Of a stretch of DNA of 40,008 bases, positions 15,057 through 32,621 are shown one piece after another. The notes below the pieces were generated by a model. That model worked only from the letters and a program-made list of their open reading frames with translations, was not told where the DNA came from and did no database searches. Origin of the DNA: Methanobacteriota archaeon. GTDB lineage: Archaea; Thermoplasmatota; Poseidoniia; Poseidoniales; Poseidoniaceae. Within the stretch, counting starts at the first letter, position 1; each line of letters starts with the position of its first letter. The translations under genes were made by a program, and so were the position numbers. The DNA lies in NCBI GenBank assembly GCA_002722135.1, contig PBKJ01000013.1, positions 121,577 through 161,584 of the forward strand, written 5' to 3'.

Positions 15057-18000
15057 TCACGCAGCGATGTCGTAGGACAGTCCACTCCAGGTGCGGAGCA
15101 GAGCGCCCTGACCGACCTCAGGTGCGTAGGACAGCTGGATGGTCACGTCCGTGAGGGGCGTGCCGTCAGCAAGGTGGGTGCGCACGAAGATCGTGTCACC
15201 GACGAAGAAGGTCGAAACCTTGTCGTCGCCTTCGGACCGAACAGAGTCGGAGAAGGTCACCAGACTGTCGCTGTTGTAGGGGGAGAACCCGTACACGCCG
15301 TCGGAGTTGGCCATCTTGACCTCGTAGACACCGTCGATTTCAGCGGCGAAGATCTTGATCTCCACGGCTTGCGTCGCCAGTTCCGTCTCGGACTGCTGCA
15401 CTTCGATCTTCCAGTGGCCGGTCTCGGCGTCGAACGCGTTGACGTCATCAATCTGGAAGGTGATGCGGGGCACACCCTTCACGTCGGTCTCGGCCAGGCT
15501 GGAGGCCCAGACGTAGATCACACCGGAGAGCACCACGGTGATCGCCACCATCAGGATGGTCGCGATAACCGGGCTCACAGCAGCCTCGTCTTCGACGAAG
15601 CGTGGGGAGGATTCCTCCTCCTCCTCTTCGTCTTCTTCGCGGCGACCCGCCAAGGCGAGGAGGCCGACAACCATGCCCGCGAGGGCGACGGCGACGATGC
15701 TCGGAGCGAACGATGGGACACCGGAAGCACCGATGGTGCGCACAACGTCAGGCAGTTCTTGGTCGGTGATCTCGAATGATCCGCGGCCGTAGTCCGCCTG
15801 GTCACAGACGTCGATGTTACCCGTGAGGGCGTTGTACATCACGTTGTTACACCAGTCCTTGTCTTCAAGCACAGGGCGACGGATGCTGTCGGTTCCGTCC
15901 TCGGAGCCGTAGAATCCGGGCTCAGCCCAGTAGTCCAGGCCGTTCGGGAGGGTCACCTTGCCGTGGCTGGCGGGCTCGTCAGCGATGAAGCGGTCCTCGA
16001 CCGACTTCGTCATGTCACAGGTCTCGTCGACACAGGTCTTGACGTCCATCTCTGCCCACACGGTCGTGGTGACCGCCTTCACGTAGACTTCGGAGTCCAC
16101 CGTCACAGACTGGCCGTAGGCGGGCGCGTCGATGTAGATTGCGTCGCGCTCCGTCTCAGCGTGGCCGTCACTCTGGAAGGTGATCATCAGCATGCTGTCG
16201 TGGTTGTAGGGGCCTTCGTCGCCGCCAGCGGTCACGGTCACGGTCACAGGCACCCAGGTGCCGTCCATGACGTTGGACACGCCGTTGAAGTCGAAGCCGC
16301 TGTTGGCTTCGAAGTAGTAGTCGGGCACCTGCTCAGCCACGTTCTGCACGATGATCTTCACGTCGCGCTTCAGCGAGGTCTGCTGGATGTAGCCGTTGTC
16401 GTTGAGGTCGTACGCGAAGCCCGTTGGGGCAGCGGCGCTGTCCGTGAGGTAGAGTTCCATCTCACAGAAGCCCTTGCCGGCCGGGTTGACCTGGTGCACA
16501 CCGCCGTTGTAGAGGTAGTCGATCTGGTTGATCGGGGCGTTGGTGGTGGCGTCCTTCACGAGGTCCAACACGAGCTCGTCACCGTTGAAGGCGAACGAGA
16601 AGTAGTTCGTGTAGGCACAGTACGCGCGGCCGTTGTCGTCGAGCTTGGGCAGCAGCGACCAGGTGAGGTCGCTGAGGTCGTGGTCGACGTCGTTCTTGAG
16701 CGCGGACAGGTCGAAGGTCAGCTCGTCGGCTTCTTCGGTGTCCTCAAGCACGCGGATGGTCCACTCGCCGTAGATGAGCGAGGAGTCGTTCGAGGCCCAG
16801 TTGATCGTGTCACCGGTCTGGAGGTTCCAGTCGTCGATGGTCGGCGCGTCGTTGACGGGCACCACGCTGATGGTGATGACCTCGTCAACCGCGTTCTGGT
16901 TCTCGGCACCGTCGTCGGACAGGCTCAGCGTGATGTCGCACGAGCCACCGGCTTCGAAGTCCATGCCGGACTTGCCGGTCACGGTCAGCACCGTGTCGTC
17001 AACCATGCCGACGCTGAACAGCGGGCAGGTCTCGTCCACGGTCACGCCCCAGGTGTACACCTGACGGGACGGGTCGTTCTCGTTCGGCTGGTCCTTGATG
17101 AGGTTCAGCGCGCTGCTGCCGGTGTTGGCAACGTCCGAGAGGATCACGGACACGCTCTGACCGCCAACAAGGCTGTCTTCGGGGATGTAGTTCACGTGAG
17201 CCGCGTCACCGAAGAGCATCACGGTGTCCACACAGTCGCCGTTGGTGTCGCGCTGGCAGATTTCCGGAGCGTCGTTGACGTTCTCGACGATGAAGTAGAT
17301 CGAGCGGTCGTCCTCAAGGCCGTTGCTGTCGGTCACGGTGAAGTTGAACTGCACCATACCGAACTGCTCGGCGGTTGGGGTGATGCTGAGGTCGTGACCC
17401 GTGAGGGACCAGCTGACCAGACCCTCGGCGGGCATCGGCGTGTTGCCGTAGACCACCACGGTCTCGCCTTCATCGACAGCCCACGTGAGGTCGCCGGCGG
17501 CGTCCTGCACGTCAGAGGCGTACGAGGTTAGGGAGACGGTGTATGCACCGGAGTCTTCGTTCACGGTGATGTTCGCAAGGTCACTGCCGATCGACGGGCA
17601 GGCGCGCTCGATGTCCATCGAGAGCGCGACGTTGTCGGACATGTTGACCGCATTCTCGGTCGCCCAGTCAACGGCACAGTCGTCGTTCGTGTGCTTGATC
17701 ATCACGTCGTACTCCTTCGCGGCCGATGGCACGTTGCTGCCGAGGAAGGTGCGGTAGGTGAGCACCTCGTCATCGAGCACGCCGTCCTGCAGGTTGTTCG
17801 CACCGAGCACCACGGTGTAGTACTCGCTGAAGTCCTGGAGGGTCGTCGTGCTGTCCATGGCTTGGTCGGGGTAGACCTCGCTCACGTCGGCGCTGCTGTC
17901 GCTCTGCACGATGGCAATCATGCGCACGGAGCTCGGCATGCCACCGAGGCGGCTGAAGGGCACCATGATCTCGGCGAAGTCGCCAGAGAAGTCGGCGTCG

Positions 18001-27000: not shown

Positions 27001-28781
27001 CCGTCGTACTCACCGAAGGTCGCCGTCGGTGCGTCGGAATCCGTACCGCCCGAGTAGGTCAGGGCGATGTAGTTGTTCGAGGAACCGCTGGTGTAGGCGT
27101 AGGTGTAGACGTACTGGCGGGTGCCGGAGTTGGTACCCGAGGTCGCGATGAGCGAGTTGTCGAAGGTCTTCGTCAGGCCGACGCTGGACGTACCGTTGAG
27201 GGCGGACCAGATGTAACCGGCTTGGGTCGAGGACGAACAGGACGTGGTACCGGTCGAGTCGCAGAAGACTGCGGTCTTCCAGCCGGTGCCGTGGTCGCTC
27301 TCGGAGAAGTCGACTCCAGGAGAGTGCACAGCAGAGACGATCATCGCCTTCTGGGCCGTGCCGCCGTAGCCGCTGGTCAGGTAGGAGGTGCTGATGGCGC
27401 CGCTGCAGGTGGGGGAGCCCATGCTGTAGCCGCTGTAGGTTTGGTAGTAGTAGTAACCGCTGGTTGGCGCGCTACCGGTCGCGGACGTTGCTGGGCGCGT
27501 CGTGCCGCAATCCTCCATGACCTTGACGTCGAAGTCAATCTTGCTGTTGGAGAGGTAAGAGTAGTGGTAGCTGACGTATTCCTTGTACTCGATCTTGTCC
27601 ACGGAAGCACCCGTTGGGAGGGCGTTGCTGCTGGAGAAGGTGAACTTGTGCCAAGGGGTGTAGAAGTAGTACGGACGGAAGGTGCTGCTGGACTTTCCGT
27701 TGTACGAGTTGTGGTACATGTAGCGGTAGTTGCTGTTGTAGCAGTTGTTGTAGGAAACGTAGCAGTAACCGCCGCCGGCGCTCGTCACGCTGAGCGTTGG
27801 GTCAAGTCCGAGAGGGAAGACACGCTCATCGTCGAGGAGCCAGGAGGTCTCGACCGCGGTGGTCAGGAAGACCATGGGTCCCTGACTCATCACGAAGAAG
27901 GTCCCGAAGTAGGGCTCTTCGACGCCGGGCTCGATGACCATTGGAGCGGGAATCTCGGCGTACAGGTCGCCGGTTTCCACGTTGCGGATCTCCAAGTGGC
28001 CGTCGGTCTGAACGAGGTCGGACCCGACCATGACCTCGCCGCTGTAGAGGGCGTGGCCGGCAGGGAGGCGCATGGCTTCGGTAAAGCCGAACCAGTGGGC
28101 GCCCTCATCGAGGATGGGGCGCTCGCGAATCACGAGGTTCTGCTTCACCTGGAAGGTGTTGACTTCGTAGTCGAGGTCAAAGCCTTCCGCGAGGGGGTAG
28201 CGGATGGTGTTGCCGCCCACCGTCACCTCAGAGGTCGCAGGAGGCGCCTCGAAGGGGGTGTGGCTGGTGCCGGACTCATCCATCACAACGAGCATGGGGT
28301 TGAGACCCGTCAGGATCGCATCGTCCCACTCGCTGGGCTGAATCACAACACCGTTGGCAACTTCCGCCGAGAAGGCGGTGTTGAAGGTGTTCTCGACAAC
28401 TTCCCAACCAAAGGCCGTGGCCTTCAGGTTGAGGTCGATGTCACTCCACGTGCCATCGTTGTCGTAGTGGATGGGCTGGTCCGAGATCATTTGCGTGAAG
28501 GTCCCGTCCGCATTGCGGAAGGTCTTCATGTTCGCATCTCGGGCGCCCACAACTTCGCTGCTGTCAGCGAAGCCGTAGTCCACAGGTTCCAGTTTCTCGG
28601 GCTGCGCGAAGGCATCGTCTTCGGCAACCTGGTTTTGCTCTGCCGCCATGACGCTGTCATCGATGGGGTTCCCCACGAGACCCGTCATCGGGGTCAGGGC
28701 CATCAGCAGCGTGAGCAGCACGGCGATGCCGATGCCACCCATAGCGGTCTTCTTCTTGTTCGTCATTCCCAACATTGTCAT
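15057..28781 (-). CDS. Giant secreted multi-domain surface protein with C-terminal type IV pilin domain
   Basis: 4574 residues counting from ATG 28781; the second ATG at 28775 is better placed behind the Shine-Dalgarno. Order of parts: signal peptide (~8-40); WapA/RHS-like N-terminal domain (~50-325, e.g. QPIHYDNDGTWSDIDLNL); Tyr-rich DNRLRE-like domain (~330-570); two Ig-like domains (~580-680, ~965-1070) around less clear regions; a right-handed beta-helix of PbH1/NosD type (~1344-3420, many 'N.isg..fg' rungs), broken by a Tyr/Gly-rich insert (~2160-2445); a stretch with VSDSWGDGG (~3190); a CBM9/DOMON-like domain (~3480-3650); cadherin-like domains (~3725-4030 and on; VENVNDAPEI, VNDAPTI); an anchor-type helix (~4356-4377) with an acidic run; then a pilin segment AVSPVIATILMVAITVVLSG (from ~4401) and a ~140-residue head. 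Expected outside the cell; adhesion or substrate capture is inferred from domain types. Confidence 0.88.
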   Translation of the reverse strand: MTMLGMTNKKKTAMGGIGIAVLLTLLMALTPMTGLVGNPIDDSVMAAEQNQVAEDDAFAQPEKLEPVDYGFADSSEVVGARDANMKTFRNADGTFTQMISDQPIHYDNDGTWSDIDLNLKATAFGWEVVENTFNTAFSAEVANGVVIQPSEWDDAILTGLNPMLVVMDESGTSHTPFEAPPATSEVTVGGNTIRYPLAEGFDLDYEVNTFQVKQNLVIRERPILDEGAHWFGFTEAMRLPAGHALYSGEVMVGSDLVQTDGHLEIRNVETGDLYAEIPAPMVIEPGVEEPYFGTFFVMSQGPMVFLTTAVETSWLLDDERVFPLGLDPTLSVTSAGGGYCYVSYNNCYNSNYRYMYHNSYNGKSSSTFRPYYFYTPWHKFTFSSSNALPTGASVDKIEYKEYVSYHYSYLSNSKIDFDVKVMEDCGTTRPATSATGSAPTSGYYYYQTYSGYSMGSPTCSGAISTSYLTSGYGGTAQKAMIVSAVHSPGVDFSESDHGTGWKTAVFCDSTGTTSCSSSTQAGYIWSALNGTSSVGLTKTFDNSLIATSGTNSGTRQYVYTYAYTSGSSNNYIALTYSGGTDSDAPTATFGEYDGITSYIEGERTFFLGLSDTSGIDTTSGNEPTLYYAINNGSYTSVAATTIGTCSASSPECQFKAQTGDITAGDYVTYYWWYQDLNVDSTGAADPNEGYTPALTGAQTTPTPYWFFVDDINNAGDAKKMVQLTTEVSATNLFSPTKFFDRQMSYFDQSDEYYFEFDTSDCGTGSSRCFYTASASSNYFYNNWIVQWQTSTYPATSSYNTGGSSPGKVYLDDDNGGFLSIAADDGPGMNLVFLWDGDEFAMVGIGDETSIEEPLSGGSTASQVSTYGYSAAHRYVVPGDITGDFAGYSWNATYSSTGQNVVCTGTNGWTHFLRSSSGSPSCSSGYYYVYNANYKWNGFALGAGYYARTGAGAAVTYDVMKIAPEPDTYAPTITHTSLADSYARSRTVTATIADGGSPPAGLNVSTTAGTGPTLYYSVNNGSTMSQIMTPVGKTTTQCVLATCDWSADITNLNTSDYIEYYITAEDVSTDVTTPNSVQTTASTFEVGDPNKMFIVEWHDMGYTNSYLCTYQVVFYDVTNEFEFKYDTGCQVYVDYSVTGYQDQTRAKGETLQKGNGWLYGSNPFTTNYRMHTSSTSNGHESFSPGLTEIKNYDTAISGSSSGTPYGYYCAYSWYWNTYKSSCNANIDMPDDFDFEYFGTLYEGTDSNDRIRLGRQGYMYFIDNGATSLERGVSTWSSNFPSMPYSGNSASRPGTIAPWWGYYTSYYCYDNTAIDCSVRYRTMPYNGKGTDIDADITTDTTWDIDDSPIRINPSNDYLSVSADLTIQPGVVVQVANGKGISFDGTCDEMKINGNEANPVTFEGQAGADWKGLAFTAACTTGTDDRHEFSHVDFRNTSDAAIAAGSRHGSSPSTNANVGNFTMNDVTFTNVAAAFEHGSGQGTVVEMTNFAVDGADDACFNFAEDTVAILREGSLKNCNTNGQSWGGAIVNYPGSTAGSLFVENVTVTNSYVNFIDVDLQDVTVSNVSVSNSASQTGVAIDAMHGTNADVYLYNVSVPDYANSGFNAVSSVYMDDVDFGSADLWITPNGWGSSTVGPMGDDAVMMNVESGDITMQRIHFGVFEEISAGDVSISGTTTHTETETWKNLDIGDLTINGGAWSLILENADVSRLYSFSTSATNTIVMEQGSTIDHDDSSVDAVYGRNSEITLASVEVTSSDIDGSSNYLAKASSNSDIVLIDVSYDDGTGFADCADASGDTSSCPVDVSSSATVWYGGLAQVSLYREALINSVVTKVYKSGHSVRTTVMDTTSSPATPLLEVGVAKTDTTGMAEAWVISGDSDGNAYGDHNIFGWGAAGQNETEVTSAWYPTGGFGFGDQIELLLQPAPINFDQPNMDCAWMANNQTFQGAESSPGVYLFDSFPMTLSADLDIDGCTLVMMGSVMTVDASATSSPVLTISNGGSLVVNVSSDTGGKGTIKAQSSSYGVRLDVADGTLSVAGGVLKDLHQDSTTMSALYIGSDGALVLSESAEVYGAQASDDDMATIKIDRGSVSISDSTIINTANTGTALWVEGSAASIDNIVVKNGAVGIMSKNAAPQIDGFTSTDNTVGVDMEGGMSLPTIYRSPSLAGVNRGWQTYDIDLSAFIGNSDYLQVGANSIYAGGNAHPYYNYWTSKYYFITDRYRMELTDNAGNTWNISAGDTGYYPYSSSDPNEGVGDVGTYQGGAGGVPQWDCNYYGVDYGPNRVGNTFYGGWGTSGVYWYFTGQSGSYPNYYNRPAAFGFNWENIDGVTPSGSYAYYPYHYWGFGTYSWAGWSGVMVPPEGLVGTNNYNVCVDYAYSYYMSSGQGARVTFPIVDISASNLTSATMYIDVLHNRANNYQDRYEFVARSGNDPADLGDYKRESGTPLFKDGTINGADVGVEIGGDFAAGHLDNVEVNSPNDAGIMVDGSTMASADGVTVNGGDYGVLVANGAAGSMDLENMDLDSQTVAGMYYVKDFGGDFSGTVSNSAGAAMKFGSSTTKDLSYDSVDFSGNNVGFDLAGSGGFTFVDSTMGSTSNDFKISGSSVVDFVEGTVDSTSVDVTGSGEFNRMRQLDVTMTADQSDGNGAVGVSDVAVVLRNAEGATASSGTTDTTGVAEDLTFTSINVDAAGLHNIDLNGYSVSSVAKVDYYWNTASDSNADFRYVEEAVSLSDNSGNAETVELIDEFDHRVCYAFSSASYNYVDRCANGWSSTGSSRVFNNGLEEHGYYYGSVDGGDFTGKAVMIDAPNWYLDGDTYEWNGTTMIWTGSWSTNDLSRVYPRYNGEVNVYLHDSTIQGMSLNDDGELAGINFGYLYYSMNLDANNTEFSGIASIVGAIGYGYYSNYELNFFNVRNSTISHYKGWSPLNNAIQSQDMCMRLYGGDGNLIEDNTFNDCAVGIEMQRSPYYWSHNSNEIGADNVSIRGNTFEDGGEISDVRFYPSASIEGAMVVDNVMNNTGGLDSAISAWDSSIEDLTISGNTIRGFTEDGIYLNDVKGFEVSDNDMYGPGNSYAGIHANGGYGDIMDNVIVDATTGILMSEATQPVGTTTDLCEISGNYGYSDSCTFNFVGNGSTLVIDIETDSWGYEISLEITKPDGTKDSWSTYTFSSNTGYKPLTTYTDAGTYTIDVSDSWGDGGITLDAYYTSAQSGVTGPVISGNDVSMSPGSTVIATTGILVEDCTGTAINMADNFVAMPTDAIVADGCDFFDENSELIGGDQASTSGVVSTNGDSVTLSGTTISGFDTGVESDAGTLSIIDNATIAGVSEGVWAYDTQLLINYAELDGGTSGVGLLLEDSGEALMYCVDLEGAAGMEIYNTDFRYNMGDVNAETAIFVSDSVGKIENLTWTSAVTTQIELDQGAMVTSIGQDLTPSLLVVPTGTMIDEANLLDIAASHLSAPVTSEVGVSIVSTDGLRAAYISPDFQSDAMAVDGDNADWIGSELNPSDDAMPGELTENFYVTYTENDDLYVAIDGLDLSTSDLLVYFDVTGGGSDTGYDYGASGAHDLPFEADFVYWAESDASNDLYAYGFLGWGVTSLSADNVDADFSGDFAEIMVPFSRLGGMPSSVRMIAIVQSDSSADVSEVYPDQAMDSTTTLQDFSEYYTVVLGANNLQDGVLDDEVLTYRTFLGSNVPSAAKEYDVMIKHTNDDCAVDWATENAVNMSDNVALSMDIERACPSIGSDLANITVNEDSGAYTVSLTSYASDVQDAAGDLTWAVDEGETVVVYGNTPMPAEGLVSWSLTGHDLSITPTAEQFGMVQFNFTVTDSNGLEDDRSIYFIVENVNDAPEICQRDTNGDCVDTVMLFGDAAHVNYIPEDSLVGGQSVSVILSDVANTGSSALNLIKDQPNENDPSRQVYTWGVTVDETCPLFSVGMVDDTVLTVTGKSGMDFEAGGSCDITLSLSDDGAENQNAVDEVITISVVPVNDAPTIDDWNLQTGDTINWASNDSSLIYGEWTIRVLEDTEEADELTFDLSALKNDVDHDLSDLTWSLLPKLDDNGRAYCAYTNYFSFAFNGDELVLDLVKDATTNAPINQIDYLYNGGVHQVNPAGKGFCEMELYLTDSAAAPTGFAYDLNDNGYIQQTSLKRDVKIIVQNVAEQVPDYYFEANSGFDFNGVSNVMDGTWVPVTVTVTAGGDEGPYNHDSMLMITFQSDGHAETERDAIYIDAPAYGQSVTVDSEVYVKAVTTTVWAEMDVKTCVDETCDMTKSVEDRFIADEPASHGKVTLPNGLDYWAEPGFYGSEDGTDSIRRPVLEDKDWCNNVMYNALTGNIDVCDQADYGRGSFEITDQELPDVVRTIGASGVPSFAPSIVAVALAGMVVGLLALAGRREEDEEEEEESSPRFVEDEAAVSPVIATILMVAITVVLSGVIYVWASSLAETDVKGVPRITFQIDDVNAFDAETGHWKIEVQQSETELATQAVEIKIFAAEIDGVYEVKMANSDGVYGFSPYNSDSLVTFSDSVRSEGDDKVSTFFVGDTIFVRTHLADGTPLTDVTIQLSYAPEVGQGALLRTWSGLSYDIAA

Positions 28782-29414: not shown

Positions 29415-32400
29415 TCAGTAATCCCAGTCCTTGTCGTCGCCGCCGCCGCCACCGCGGGTGACGATGATGGCGCCAACCACGATCGCTGCAACCACAACGC
29501 CGCCAATGGCGGGCAGGGTCCAACCGGGCAATTCGCTCTCGCCACTGACGTCTTCGCCAACGGTGCCGTTGCCGTCATCCGTGTTGGTGAAGTCCGCGTC
29601 GCGGCGGTACTGGGCCGAGGCGTCGCCTTCGTTCGCCAGCTTGCTGTTGCCGAGGTCATCGACGGCCACACCGACGAAGTGGTAGGTCTCGGTGCCTGTG
29701 AACGTGGGCTGAGCAATCTCAACGGTGTTCTGCGTCAGGCCAACGGTGGTGCACTTGTCACCAGACGTGCGGATGTTCGCCTTGTCGGTACCGTAGCAGA
29801 TGCGCCAGTTCGCCACATCGCTGTCGTCGCCAACGGACGTCCAGACGACGGTGAAGGAATCGCCGTTCGCTGGGGCGGTGATGCTGGTGATGGACATCGC
29901 GCCGTCGCCGTCGACCTCAGAGTCTGCCGTGACGTTGCCAAGGCCGACCTGCTGGTCGTTGCACAAGCGCTCTGCGGTGCACACCTTGACCGAGATGGTG
30001 TAGACGGTCCCGTGCGTGGTGAAGGTACCCGGACGGGTGTAGGTCTTGACGTCAGACTCGAAGGCCTCCACGAAGGAGTTCATGCAGTCGGCGTCCCCAG
30101 CGACGTCGCAGATCTCGAGCAGGAAGATGTCGCCGAGAGACATGGTCTCGGAAGCGTCAATGCCCCAGTTCACGATCAGCGTGCCGCCCTTTCCTGCCGC
30201 AGCAGAGAACGCGGTGATGCCCACAGTGGGTGCCTCAGCGAGGTCAAGCGCACCGCCGAAGAGCACGAACTTCCCCGCGCTCAAGGTGTCCTCGTTCGCG
30301 GGCAGGTCCCAGGTGAAGACGCTCATGGTGGGGTCCACGGTGCTGTCTTCAGCCGTGTTGTCAATGAGCTGATACATGCTCCCTTGGTTGAACCAAATGC
30401 TGCCTTCTCCGTTGAGGAGGGACTTGGGGACCGTGAAGGTCATGCTCTGGCTCAGCACGCCACTGGCGGCGAGGGAACCGAGTTGTGCATCGGGGGCGAA
30501 GTCGATGACCGCCACCGAATCGTACTGTCCGGAGTAGCCGGGGAGTTCCATGCCGGTCACACCAGCGCTCGCGTCAGTCGCGGTGATGGTGTAGGGCGTG
30601 GTGCTCGAGTACTGCAGCGCGTAGGCCACCGTGATGCCGCTGTCGGCCGTGGTGGACTCCGCGGTCACGTCGTTCCAAATGGTGAGGTCCATGTATTCCG
30701 AGGTGGAAGCGCCGTTGTCGTCGGTCACGGTCACCTTCACGCGGGGAGCGGGCATGTACTCGGGCAGGATCTGGAAGGTGCACTGTGCACCGACAGCGCC
30801 CACGCCACCGCACATGCCGAGGTCGTTGTCCACGCCACCGACTTCGACGGCCCACGTGTAGGTCAGGCAGTCGCCGGCCACACAGTCCACGTCGAAGGCG
30901 AGCACGTCAAACTCGAGCGGTGCTTCCTGCGAGACGACGAGGTCGCCGGTGTTGAACATCGTCATCGAGAGGACGCTGGGTTGGTTGTTCACCACATCGA
31001 GGTTCATGACCTTCCGGTTGTTGGATGCCTTCTCGTCCGTGATCGCGGTGTCGAGACGCTCAGCGGTGGTGTCCCACACGCCGAGGAAGTTCAGGTCAGC
31101 CTCGAAATTGTACTCTCCGACGGTCAGCGCGTTCTCGTTGTTGAGCATCACACAAGCGGAACCGAAGATGTCGGCTTCTTGAGGCGTACCTTGGCCGTTG
31201 TAGGTGCCAAGGAACTTGTGGGTGTAGGCTGGAGCGAGGCCGGTGGGGCACTCGTCCGCGTTGTAGGTGTCTTCCGTGCCGTCAGGCGAGGTCACGGTGA
31301 ACACCACGTTCCAGTCGACCATCTTGCTGACGTCGGAACCGAAGTGACCGACAGTGGCGTGGAGGAGGGTGGTGCCCACGCGCAAGTCGAGGTCCATGCC
31401 GTCCTGAATCACCGAGGTCGGTTCACCGGAGCCGTCGGCGCTGTAACCTTGGGCCACGGAGAGGGTCTGGAGGCGGATGTCATGGAAGAGGGCGCTGAAG
31501 CCGTAGATGTCATCGGAGTCCGTGCGCGAGTAATCGTCGTTGGTCTCGAGGTACTCGCACCAGTTGTCGCTGGTCAATTCAACGGGTGGCTCGGCCGCGG
31601 GGTCATCGATCCACGATTCGGAGCAAGCCGGGTCTTGACCGTACATCGTGTGGTCAACGACACGGGCGTCGATGCTGTAGCCTCCATCACCTGGGGTAAC
31701 CGTGCCGGTCATGGTCCAAGCGGTTTGGAAAGCCAGGACAGAGCGCGACGCGTCGGTACCGGTGTCGGTGGTGGTGTTGCGGTAGACTTCAACGGTCTGT
31801 GCGTTGCCGGCAACGACGAGCCATTCCTCACCGTCGACACCGAGGTCAAAACCACCGCCGCTTGCGGCGTCAAATCCGTCGAGCTCAACGCTCACGTTGA
31901 CCTCGCGCGGGTTGAAATCTTGGCTGCCATCTGCGGTGACGGTCAGCAGGAACTGGCGGGACTCGGTGCCCGTTCCAACCGCACGGTCGCCTTCTTCGCA
32001 GACGCCGGAGCCGTCGGTCCAGCAGAGGTCGACCTCGATGTCCGTGTAGTCACGCACGACGACGTAGATTTCTTCTTCGTCGTTCGCTGGGTCAGTGTCT
32101 TGGTCAGAGTCGACGGAAATCACAACGAGGTATTCACCGACGCTGGGGGACCACGTGATGTCCGCGCCGCCGCTGGTCAGGGTGGCTGCGCCACCTGTGT
32201 AGATGGTGTTGGCCGCGAAGGACGTCTCGTCGCAGGACGCGGCTTCATCGCACACCGCCACATCGTTGGTCCACGACAGGGGTTGGCCGGAGGAGTCCAA
32301 GGCTTGGAGGCCTCGGGTCTTGGTGGAATCGGTCAGGTAGATGTCCAAAGAGTAGGACATGTCCTCCACATCACCGGTACCGATGTTCTTCATGACCACT

Positions 32401-32621
32401 TCAAAGGTGGTCGATTCACCGACGAGCAACTCGTCACGGCAGCCTGCCGCCGTACAAGTGGTCTCGGACGGCTGGGTGATGCCGAGGATGTCGACGTCTG
32501 CGCCCGATCGAGCGCTGGTCTGGTCGACGGTGTCTTCGGTGTCAAGTTCGTTGGTTGGAATTCCCGCGAGCAGGCTAGCGAGCAGCAGCGTCACGAGAAG
32601 CATGGTGGTCATGTTTCGCAT
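29415..32621 (-). CDS. Secreted, C-terminally anchored surface protein with CARDB/FN3-like domains
   Basis: 1068 residues. Signal peptide (MRNMTTMLLVTLLLASLLAG, 1-20). Then a CARDB/APHP-like Ig fold (~40-195: VGESTTFEVVMKNIGTGDVEDMSY, ending VDSDQDTDPANDEEEIYVVV, the typical 'vDs.n.v.E.nE.NN' type of ending), followed by further related beta domains with paired cysteines (CTAAGC; CDEAASC). A possible PKD/cadherin-like domain carries DCLTYTWAVEVGG, and an FN3-like domain lies at ~904-1010 (FTVVWTSVGDDSDVANWRICYG). A membrane helix (~1034-1053: LPAIGGVVVAAIVVGAIIVTR) precedes a Gly run and acidic end DDKDWDY. It is expected to project from the cell surface. It has its own strong TATA box and Shine-Dalgarno. 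Function is not recognised; such folds usually mediate adhesion or assembly. Confidence 0.85.
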   Translation of the reverse strand: MRNMTTMLLVTLLLASLLAGIPTNELDTEDTVDQTSARSGADVDILGITQPSETTCTAAGCRDELLVGESTTFEVVMKNIGTGDVEDMSYSLDIYLTDSTKTRGLQALDSSGQPLSWTNDVAVCDEAASCDETSFAANTIYTGGAATLTSGGADITWSPSVGEYLVVISVDSDQDTDPANDEEEIYVVVRDYTDIEVDLCWTDGSGVCEEGDRAVGTGTESRQFLLTVTADGSQDFNPREVNVSVELDGFDAASGGGFDLGVDGEEWLVVAGNAQTVEVYRNTTTDTGTDASRSVLAFQTAWTMTGTVTPGDGGYSIDARVVDHTMYGQDPACSESWIDDPAAEPPVELTSDNWCEYLETNDDYSRTDSDDIYGFSALFHDIRLQTLSVAQGYSADGSGEPTSVIQDGMDLDLRVGTTLLHATVGHFGSDVSKMVDWNVVFTVTSPDGTEDTYNADECPTGLAPAYTHKFLGTYNGQGTPQEADIFGSACVMLNNENALTVGEYNFEADLNFLGVWDTTAERLDTAITDEKASNNRKVMNLDVVNNQPSVLSMTMFNTGDLVVSQEAPLEFDVLAFDVDCVAGDCLTYTWAVEVGGVDNDLGMCGGVGAVGAQCTFQILPEYMPAPRVKVTVTDDNGASTSEYMDLTIWNDVTAESTTADSGITVAYALQYSSTTPYTITATDASAGVTGMELPGYSGQYDSVAVIDFAPDAQLGSLAASGVLSQSMTFTVPKSLLNGEGSIWFNQGSMYQLIDNTAEDSTVDPTMSVFTWDLPANEDTLSAGKFVLFGGALDLAEAPTVGITAFSAAAGKGGTLIVNWGIDASETMSLGDIFLLEICDVAGDADCMNSFVEAFESDVKTYTRPGTFTTHGTVYTISVKVCTAERLCNDQQVGLGNVTADSEVDGDGAMSITSITAPANGDSFTVVWTSVGDDSDVANWRICYGTDKANIRTSGDKCTTVGLTQNTVEIAQPTFTGTETYHFVGVAVDDLGNSKLANEGDASAQYRRDADFTNTDDGNGTVGEDVSGESELPGWTLPAIGGVVVAAIVVGAIIVTRGGGGGDDKDWDY

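Follow-up and report, generated by a model that had tools for sequence, protein, structure and literature searches.

The window, by which we mean the whole 40,008-nucleotide stretch of contig PBKJ01000013.1 that was analysed, comes from a genome of the Poseidoniaceae, Marine Group IIa (1.94 Mb, 92.5% complete), and holds on its minus strand a single open reading frame of 4574 aa, the parts of which are listed in Table 1. The N-terminal segment at aa 17-35 would act as the signal. Far downstream of it, a hydropathy scan placed the anchor helix TM1 at aa 4361-4379 (a shoulder that overlaps it begins at aa 4350) and the third hydrophobic segment of the frame at aa 4405-4423; the stretch between these two reads RREEDEEEEEESSPRFVEDEAA. 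The third segment is part of a Pilin_N domain (PF07790; aa 4401-4447, E = 3.7e-8, 34.5 bits against a curated cut-off of 25.2), and the last 173 aa of the chain form the pilin part. A preliminary description of this DNA had noted that EDEAA precedes VSPV, and the window indeed reads RFVEDEAA↓VSPV (↓ marks the predicted cut). In alignment A4, the first codon GTG is read as M. The upstream neighbour (29415-32621, minus strand) encodes a secreted-looking protein of 1068 aa with a C-terminal hydrophobic anchor and a GGGGGDDKDWDY tail.

Table 1. Features of the surface protein–pilin reading frame (positions in the window)
Feature	Position	Strand	Remark
Single ORF, 4574 aa	15057..28781	minus	signal peptide, giant ectodomain, anchor, acidic linker, type IV pilin
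N-terminal signal peptide region (predicted)	28647..28781	minus	hydrophobic aa 17-35 after KKK; hydropathy scan
Ectodomain module ahead of the anchor	15939..16319	minus	common to paralogues without the pilin helix
VPSFAPS motif ahead of TM1	15699..15719	minus	
TM1, predicted outward-to-inward anchor helix	15645..15701	minus	hydropathy 2.39; helix 45-64 of the low-confidence junction model
RR and acidic linker, predicted cytoplasmic, 22 aa	15579..15644	minus	17-22 aa in 87 rows
Purine run GAGGAGGAGGAGGAA	15612..15626	minus	codes for Glu, part of the linker; in frame
In-frame ATG within TM1	15672..15674	minus	not conserved
Predicted prepilin peptidase site A4401↓V4402	15576..15581, cut between 15579 and 15578	minus	
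Pilin N-terminal hydrophobic helix (H-domain)	15492..15578	minus	
Pilin head, beta-sandwich	15060..15464	minus	structure model; best match 8fj5

Distribution and conservation of the junction

Searching with the C-terminal 258 aa gave fusion-type matches (E ≤ 1e-30, counted among the matches listed) in 123 of the 145 genomes of the family, covering 11 of its 11 genera; in one of the 123 (G142) the match ends at a contig end, ahead of the junction. At E ≤ 1e-20, an order-wide profile search matched 167 of 292 genomes and 15 of 22 genera, its weakest rows possibly being stand-alone pilins. The junction itself was read in 86 loci from 85 family genomes (the fetched part of the 123; L034 was left out, being the same place as L094) and in 16 loci from the sister family, where the fusion occurs in four genera (g15, g17, g19 and g22). 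We take the sister family to be Ca. Thalassarchaeaceae, because the available part of PMC6461757 names Poseidoniaceae and Thalassarchaeaceae as two families. TM1, a basic/acidic linker and A↓VSPVIAT were present in all 86 family and all 16 sister-family loci fetched, and no stop interrupts the frame from the TM1 region to V+1 in any of the 87 family rows (two of which are one place). The occurrence of VPSFAPS in all 86 family loci is by construction, SF[AT]P having been demanded by the locus filter. The MG-II chromosome CM001443.1 has the junction too. Judged from these sequences, the joint between giant surface protein and pilin is old and widely conserved. We found no description of such a fusion in the literature searched, which included the accessible parts of PMC6461757, PMC6336850 and PMC4858521, many subscription papers lying outside the search. 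A flag of '1 TGA' on about a dozen rows of genus g10 had suggested stops inside the fusion; it proved to be the natural stop, the alignment having run a few residues beyond it. One genome (G058) has two fusion-type loci, L105 and a second match at C1:3820-4569, and some fused reading frames are as long as 5146-5478 aa (G058, G052, G130 and G259).

Across the 86 family loci, positions +1 to +20 of the pilin are invariant save for one Ala-to-Thr change at +12, and the codons of this stretch vary synonymously at nearly every position. Invariant residues together with synonymous codon change point to selection and not to recent copying. Ahead of the cut, the entropy is 0 at -1, 0.5 at -4 and 0.8 at -3, against 2.2-3.0 bits at -6 and at -8 to -12; constraint in the fused family copies is focused at -5, -4, -3, -1 and +1 to +20. 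The sequence of TM1 varies freely, though it is also a helix, and the overall pattern seems better explained by a peptidase site followed by a pilin helix than by a simple anchor. It also bears on the suspicion that the junction is a misassembly, or a decayed pilin fused through a lost stop codon. The genome that holds the window is a draft assembly of 27 contigs and the named related records are metagenome assemblies, but the junction recurs in independent assemblies of both families, CM001443.1 among them, and purifying selection at the codon level is at odds with decay. The observed conservation refutes this reading, to which we assign a negligible chance. In the sister family, +10 is Leu in 16/16 fused copies versus Met in 21/22 stand-alone PilA-type pilins, which argues that a fused subunit cannot simply take the place of a stand-alone one, or the reverse. 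Gene conversion between the two kinds of H-domain was considered as well and was not seen, +10 being different in that family.

The preliminary description had pointed to a Shine-Dalgarno-like run at 15612-15626, had named the GTG at 15578, more than 30 nt away, as the only in-frame start nearby, and had judged independent translation of the pilin unlikely. The run GAGGAGGAGGAGGAA lies exactly at 15626-15612 of the minus strand, in frame, and encodes the Glu-rich linker; 33 nt separate it from the GTG of V+1, and starting there would remove the leader, as stated. The word 'only' has to be dropped, since an in-frame ATG at 15674 had been missed. Across L035-L043 the residue at this ATG varies between M, I, F and V, so that it is not kept even within the genus. 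The purine run is not conserved either (the median longest purine run is 10 nt across the 86 loci), while the acidic residues are, and the run is unlikely to bind ribosomes. Among stand-alone PilA-type pilins of the family, by contrast, most have an ATG at -10, preceded at 8 nt by GGAGG or AGGAGG. For a pilin made separately, by ribosomes starting in the linker or in TM1, one could cite the purine-rich run of the window and the 12/86 family fused loci that have some in-frame start with a Shine-Dalgarno-like word 4-11 nt upstream. No start codon position is common to the loci, however: 24/86 are without any ATG, GTG or TTG between -24 and -3, and the V+1 codon is GTG in 61/86 and GTC, GTA or GTT in the other 25/86. 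With no internal start conserved across the 86 loci, the judgement of the preliminary description stands, and on this comparison independent translation of the fused pilin is very unlikely.

The predicted cleavage site in fused and stand-alone pilins

Two further claims of the preliminary description, that the peptidase site is unusual and that many pilins carry a basic residue shortly before the cut, fared differently. Stand-alone pilins of the lineage, when aligned, were found to carry (D/E)EA↓VSPV as well. Among 67 of them from the family (69 pattern rows less two chance hits, taken among the best-scoring rows of the Pilin_N listings), -1 is Ala in 66, -2 is acidic in 63, -3 is acidic in 58 and -5 is basic in 54, whereas a basic -2 occurs in none; the site is therefore not unusual, and the basic residue exists at -5 and not at -2. 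Three loci with long upstream frames (L159, L169 and L171) were excluded by the filter, and the weak L004 and six further stand-alone pilins (L310-L315) are uncounted. In the 86 fused family copies, Ala at -1, Val at +1, Val-Ser at +1/+2 and a hydrophobic residue at -7 are universal; -3 is acidic in 85, -4 in 79 and -5 in 77, and -2 is charged in 5. The preliminary description had held that its view would suffer if separate pilins kept a basic residue that is lost in the fusion, and this is partly so, the base at -5 being present in 54/67 stand-alone and in 0/86 fused family copies, and a charge at -2 in 63/67 of the former against 5/86 of the latter. In the sister family, -1 is Ala in all 16 fused copies, 13 of which have a charged -2; the 22 stand-alone pilins all have Ala at -1 and an acid at -3, 18 have a base at -5, and their -2 is neutral in 14 (Gln in 13) and charged in 8 (basic in 2). 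The G, A or S expected at -1 is thus Ala in every fused locus (86/86 and 16/16). The fused copies of the family show two departures, the missing base at -5 and the neutral -2. In stand-alone leaders the base at -5 is probably a topology signal, which TM1 and RR would make superfluous in the fusion.

According to the accessible part of the review PMC4371748, a charge at -2 is critical for archaeal prepilin peptidases, and FlaFind 1.2, as given in the available text of PMC4307647, demands [KRDE][GA]. This motif occurs at A↓V in 5/86 and at either register in 19/86 of the family fused loci; the window, with Ala at -2, does not match it at A↓V and fits one residue earlier, at E-A↓A-V. A table in the part of PMC4371748 available to us gives DSAV for H. 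volcanii PilA2, and the subunit of the H. volcanii pilus 8fj5 reads LFNDDSA↓VSPVIGV, with an ordered chain (13-145) that starts at that very Val. From the 8fj5 sequence and the start of its ordered chain, we conclude that a neutral -2 does not stand in the way of cutting when -3 and -4 are acidic; because -2 is neutral in this solved pilin also, a charge there is not strictly defining. The fused pilin of the window resembles 8fj5 in its neutral -2, in Ala at -1, in the acids at -3 and -4, in an H-domain of the form VSPVI..ILMVAITV.L and in the predicted beta-sandwich head. As far as the sequences tell, the order generally has sites of the form [DE]xA↓VSPVIAT, and that of the window looks ordinary for Poseidoniales, with 8fj5 as a solved precedent. 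The difference from PilA/Pilin_N pilins lies in the leader, which in the fusion would be a loop between two membrane helices and not a short N-terminus. Two longer stand-alone pilins of the sister family, L324 and L340, extend 387 and 492 aa past the site and are candidates for minor or tip pilins.

The assignment of the C-terminal part to the pilins was also examined by profile and by structure. All 43 aligned fused pilins match the Pilin_N profile at E ≤ 0.01, and a profile built from the fused junction finds the 8fj5 sequence at E = 1.5e-11. A model of the mature pilin from 43 sequences (mean pLDDT 80.4, residues 22-33 below 50) is predicted to adopt the pilin fold, with a long N-terminal helix and a beta head. 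Its best match is 8fj5 (Z 9.5, 127 residues, rmsd 7.5). Next, at Z 6-8, come archaellins, the Cuniculiplasma pilus and FlaF/FlaG heads; unrelated Ig folds also turn up at these scores, Z below 8 being weak. The AlphaFold model of the whole junction had a mean pLDDT of 65, with the linker and much of the pre-TM1 stretch below 50; its top Foldseek rows are archaella and a pilus, and owing to its poor quality the topology was not taken from it.

Prepilin peptidase and pilus genes

A prepilin peptidase at first seemed to be absent, PF01478 giving only chance matches in the window's genome (by sequence, an RND-type transporter and a pyrophosphatase), but a family profile, built from PF01478 hits in relatives that were mostly weak, gave a strong match. 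With this profile, a divergent FlaK-type prepilin peptidase was found in 138/145 family genomes, including the window's own. The own-genome homologue is encoded outside the window (G000:C13:75450-76412) and falls below the PF01478 cut-off; its motifs D...RRVPN and HGGAD.K are readable, so that both catalytic Asp of the A24 family (D...RRxPN and GxHyD-type) are in place, as in FlaK/PibD (A24; 3s0x). The peptidase profile matches FlaK 3s0x with E = 4.3e-14, and in a nine-row alignment Arc_PepC_II was matched by 9/9 rows, Peptidase_A24 by 8/9, and both Asp are invariant. Since PF01478 misses most of these copies, annotation may show no prepilin peptidase in Marine Group II. Throughout the order (L127-L135, L142), the peptidase has GGAD where FlaK 3s0x has GGGD.

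Of the 60 sister-family genomes, 20 have Pilin_N genes, all of them in the fusion genera g15, g17, g19 and g22, and 28 have the peptidase, in these four genera plus g14 and g21. For the T2SSF platform, g15, g17, g19 and g22 have 2-5 matches, those genomes of g14 and g21 that match at all have one, the window's genome has five and the other listed genera have none; the search matched 76/115 genomes, and 19 unmatched genomes are outside the listing. These distributions support the view that the fusion follows the pilus genes and not the lone platform left in g14 and g21, within a phyletic coupling that comprises few independent gains or losses. No Pilin_N gene was found in genus g21 among the 60 sister-family genomes. 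Two peptidase matches of that genus (G173:C9:60142-61143 and G187:C44:6821-7822) run through one TAA stop, which may lie close to the end of the gene or reflect decay. These distributions agree with the available text of PMC6461757 and PMC6336850, where an archaellum operon is reported for every MGIIa group and for some of MGIIb.

A proposed two-protein precursor and its alternatives

The segment ahead of the cleavage site also occurs on its own. In six genomes, including that of the window, a separate surface protein has VPSFAPS-TM-RR at its extreme C-terminal end; these proteins (L214, at C12:26844-26942 of the window's genome, and L211-L213, L215 and L216) end in VPSFAPS-TM-RRPRD, likely a lineage-specific C-terminal anchor signal. 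Because TM1, VPSFAPS and RR make up a complete C-terminus elsewhere, the part of the fusion ahead of the site looks like a finished anchored protein. VPSFAPS fits the VPXXXP-CTERM archaeosortase signal, and VPSFAPS-TM-RR resembles the tripartite signal of such substrates, but in the fusion it is internal and not C-terminal. No match to archaeosortase PF09721, and thus no cognate enzyme for a VPXXXP-CTERM substrate, was found in the window's 92.5% complete genome, and archaeosortase processing of TM1 is a weak lead.

The ectodomain module and the pilin head, on the other hand, are found together without what lies between them. In all four paralogues read (L101-L104), the module is joined straight to a pilin head, without TM1, linker or H-domain; three end in another anchor and L103 meets a contig end. 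L101 is 44% identical to the window's protein over the module (127 aa) and the head, and L104 is 31% identical over the module and 35% over the head. Module and head hence appear to belong together outside the cell. These sequences favour docking of the pilin head on the giant protein; they also show that a head can serve without being a filament subunit. Acidic DSDGDG repeats follow the head in L101 and L104.

We propose, with a probability of roughly 0.7, that the reading frame encodes a precursor of two proteins, which a prepilin peptidase separates into a pilin and a giant surface protein held by its anchor. The signal peptide would send the giant N-terminal part outside the cell, and TM1 would halt transfer, so that RR and the acidic linker remain cytoplasmic; the pilin H-domain would then re-enter the membrane and the head would finish outside. 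A FlaK/PibD-type prepilin peptidase would cut A4401↓V4402 from the cytoplasmic side, releasing for the pilus system a mature pilin with N-terminal Val-Ser-Pro-Val and leaving behind a giant surface protein that TM1 holds in the membrane and that ends in a short acidic tail. Being translated together, both products would arise in equal amounts. Known FlaK/PibD substrates have short N-terminal leaders (6-12 aa is typical for archaellins in the accessible part of PMC4307647), whereas here the leader would be a 22-aa loop on a giant surface protein. The proposal is supported because the junction is never split across 11/11 genera of the family and four of the sister family, because the same type of site is present in the solved, filament-forming pilin 8fj5, and because a peptidase homologue is present and the Pilin_N genera of the sister family are the fusion genera.

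Against a two-protein precursor speak the near-absence of a charged -2 in the fused sites of the family (5/86), the paralogue heads without an H-domain, the Leu versus Met at +10 in the sister family, and the tight linker length, which would also suit an uncut hairpin. Such a hairpin is the main rival: the site would be unused, TM1 and the H-domain would form a two-helix anchor, and the head would be one more domain on the outside, which may dock to the base of a pilus or archaellum. It would account for the 17-22 aa of linker in 87 rows, for the neutral -2 and absent -5 base of the fused copies and for the use of the head without the H-domain in L101-L104, and it is consistent with the resemblance of the head to the archaellum stator FlaF/FlaG (4p94, Z 7.5; 5tuh, Z 6.2; weak matches, with Z below 8). 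A plain anchor, however, needs neither an invariant +1 to +20 nor Ala at -1, the anchor TM1 itself varies freely, and the same type of site is apparently processed in H. volcanii; we consider the uncut hairpin rather unlikely.

A tentative extension of the two-protein precursor, possible although not probable, is that the peptidase serves as a polyprotein protease and that the freed head stays docked, the giant protein then being a pilus anchor or adhesin with the same stoichiometry. If so, each molecule of the giant protein would bring along one pilin that already sits in the membrane next to it, and the giant protein would anchor the filaments in place of an S-layer. The fusion bears on how Marine Group II archaea, which are abundant and uncultured, attach to particles. 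That the gene has stayed fused in 15 genera implies that giant surface protein and pilin must be made together, which points to one machine and, if the chain is cut, to an unusual use of a prepilin peptidase, on a multi-protein precursor instead of a short leader. Large signal-peptide and S-layer-like proteins occur in archaeal pilus loci, according to the available text of PMC4858521, and there too a large surface protein is tied to a type IV pilus system; those proteins are encoded by separate genes, with no pilin fusion described in that text, whereas here the two are fused.
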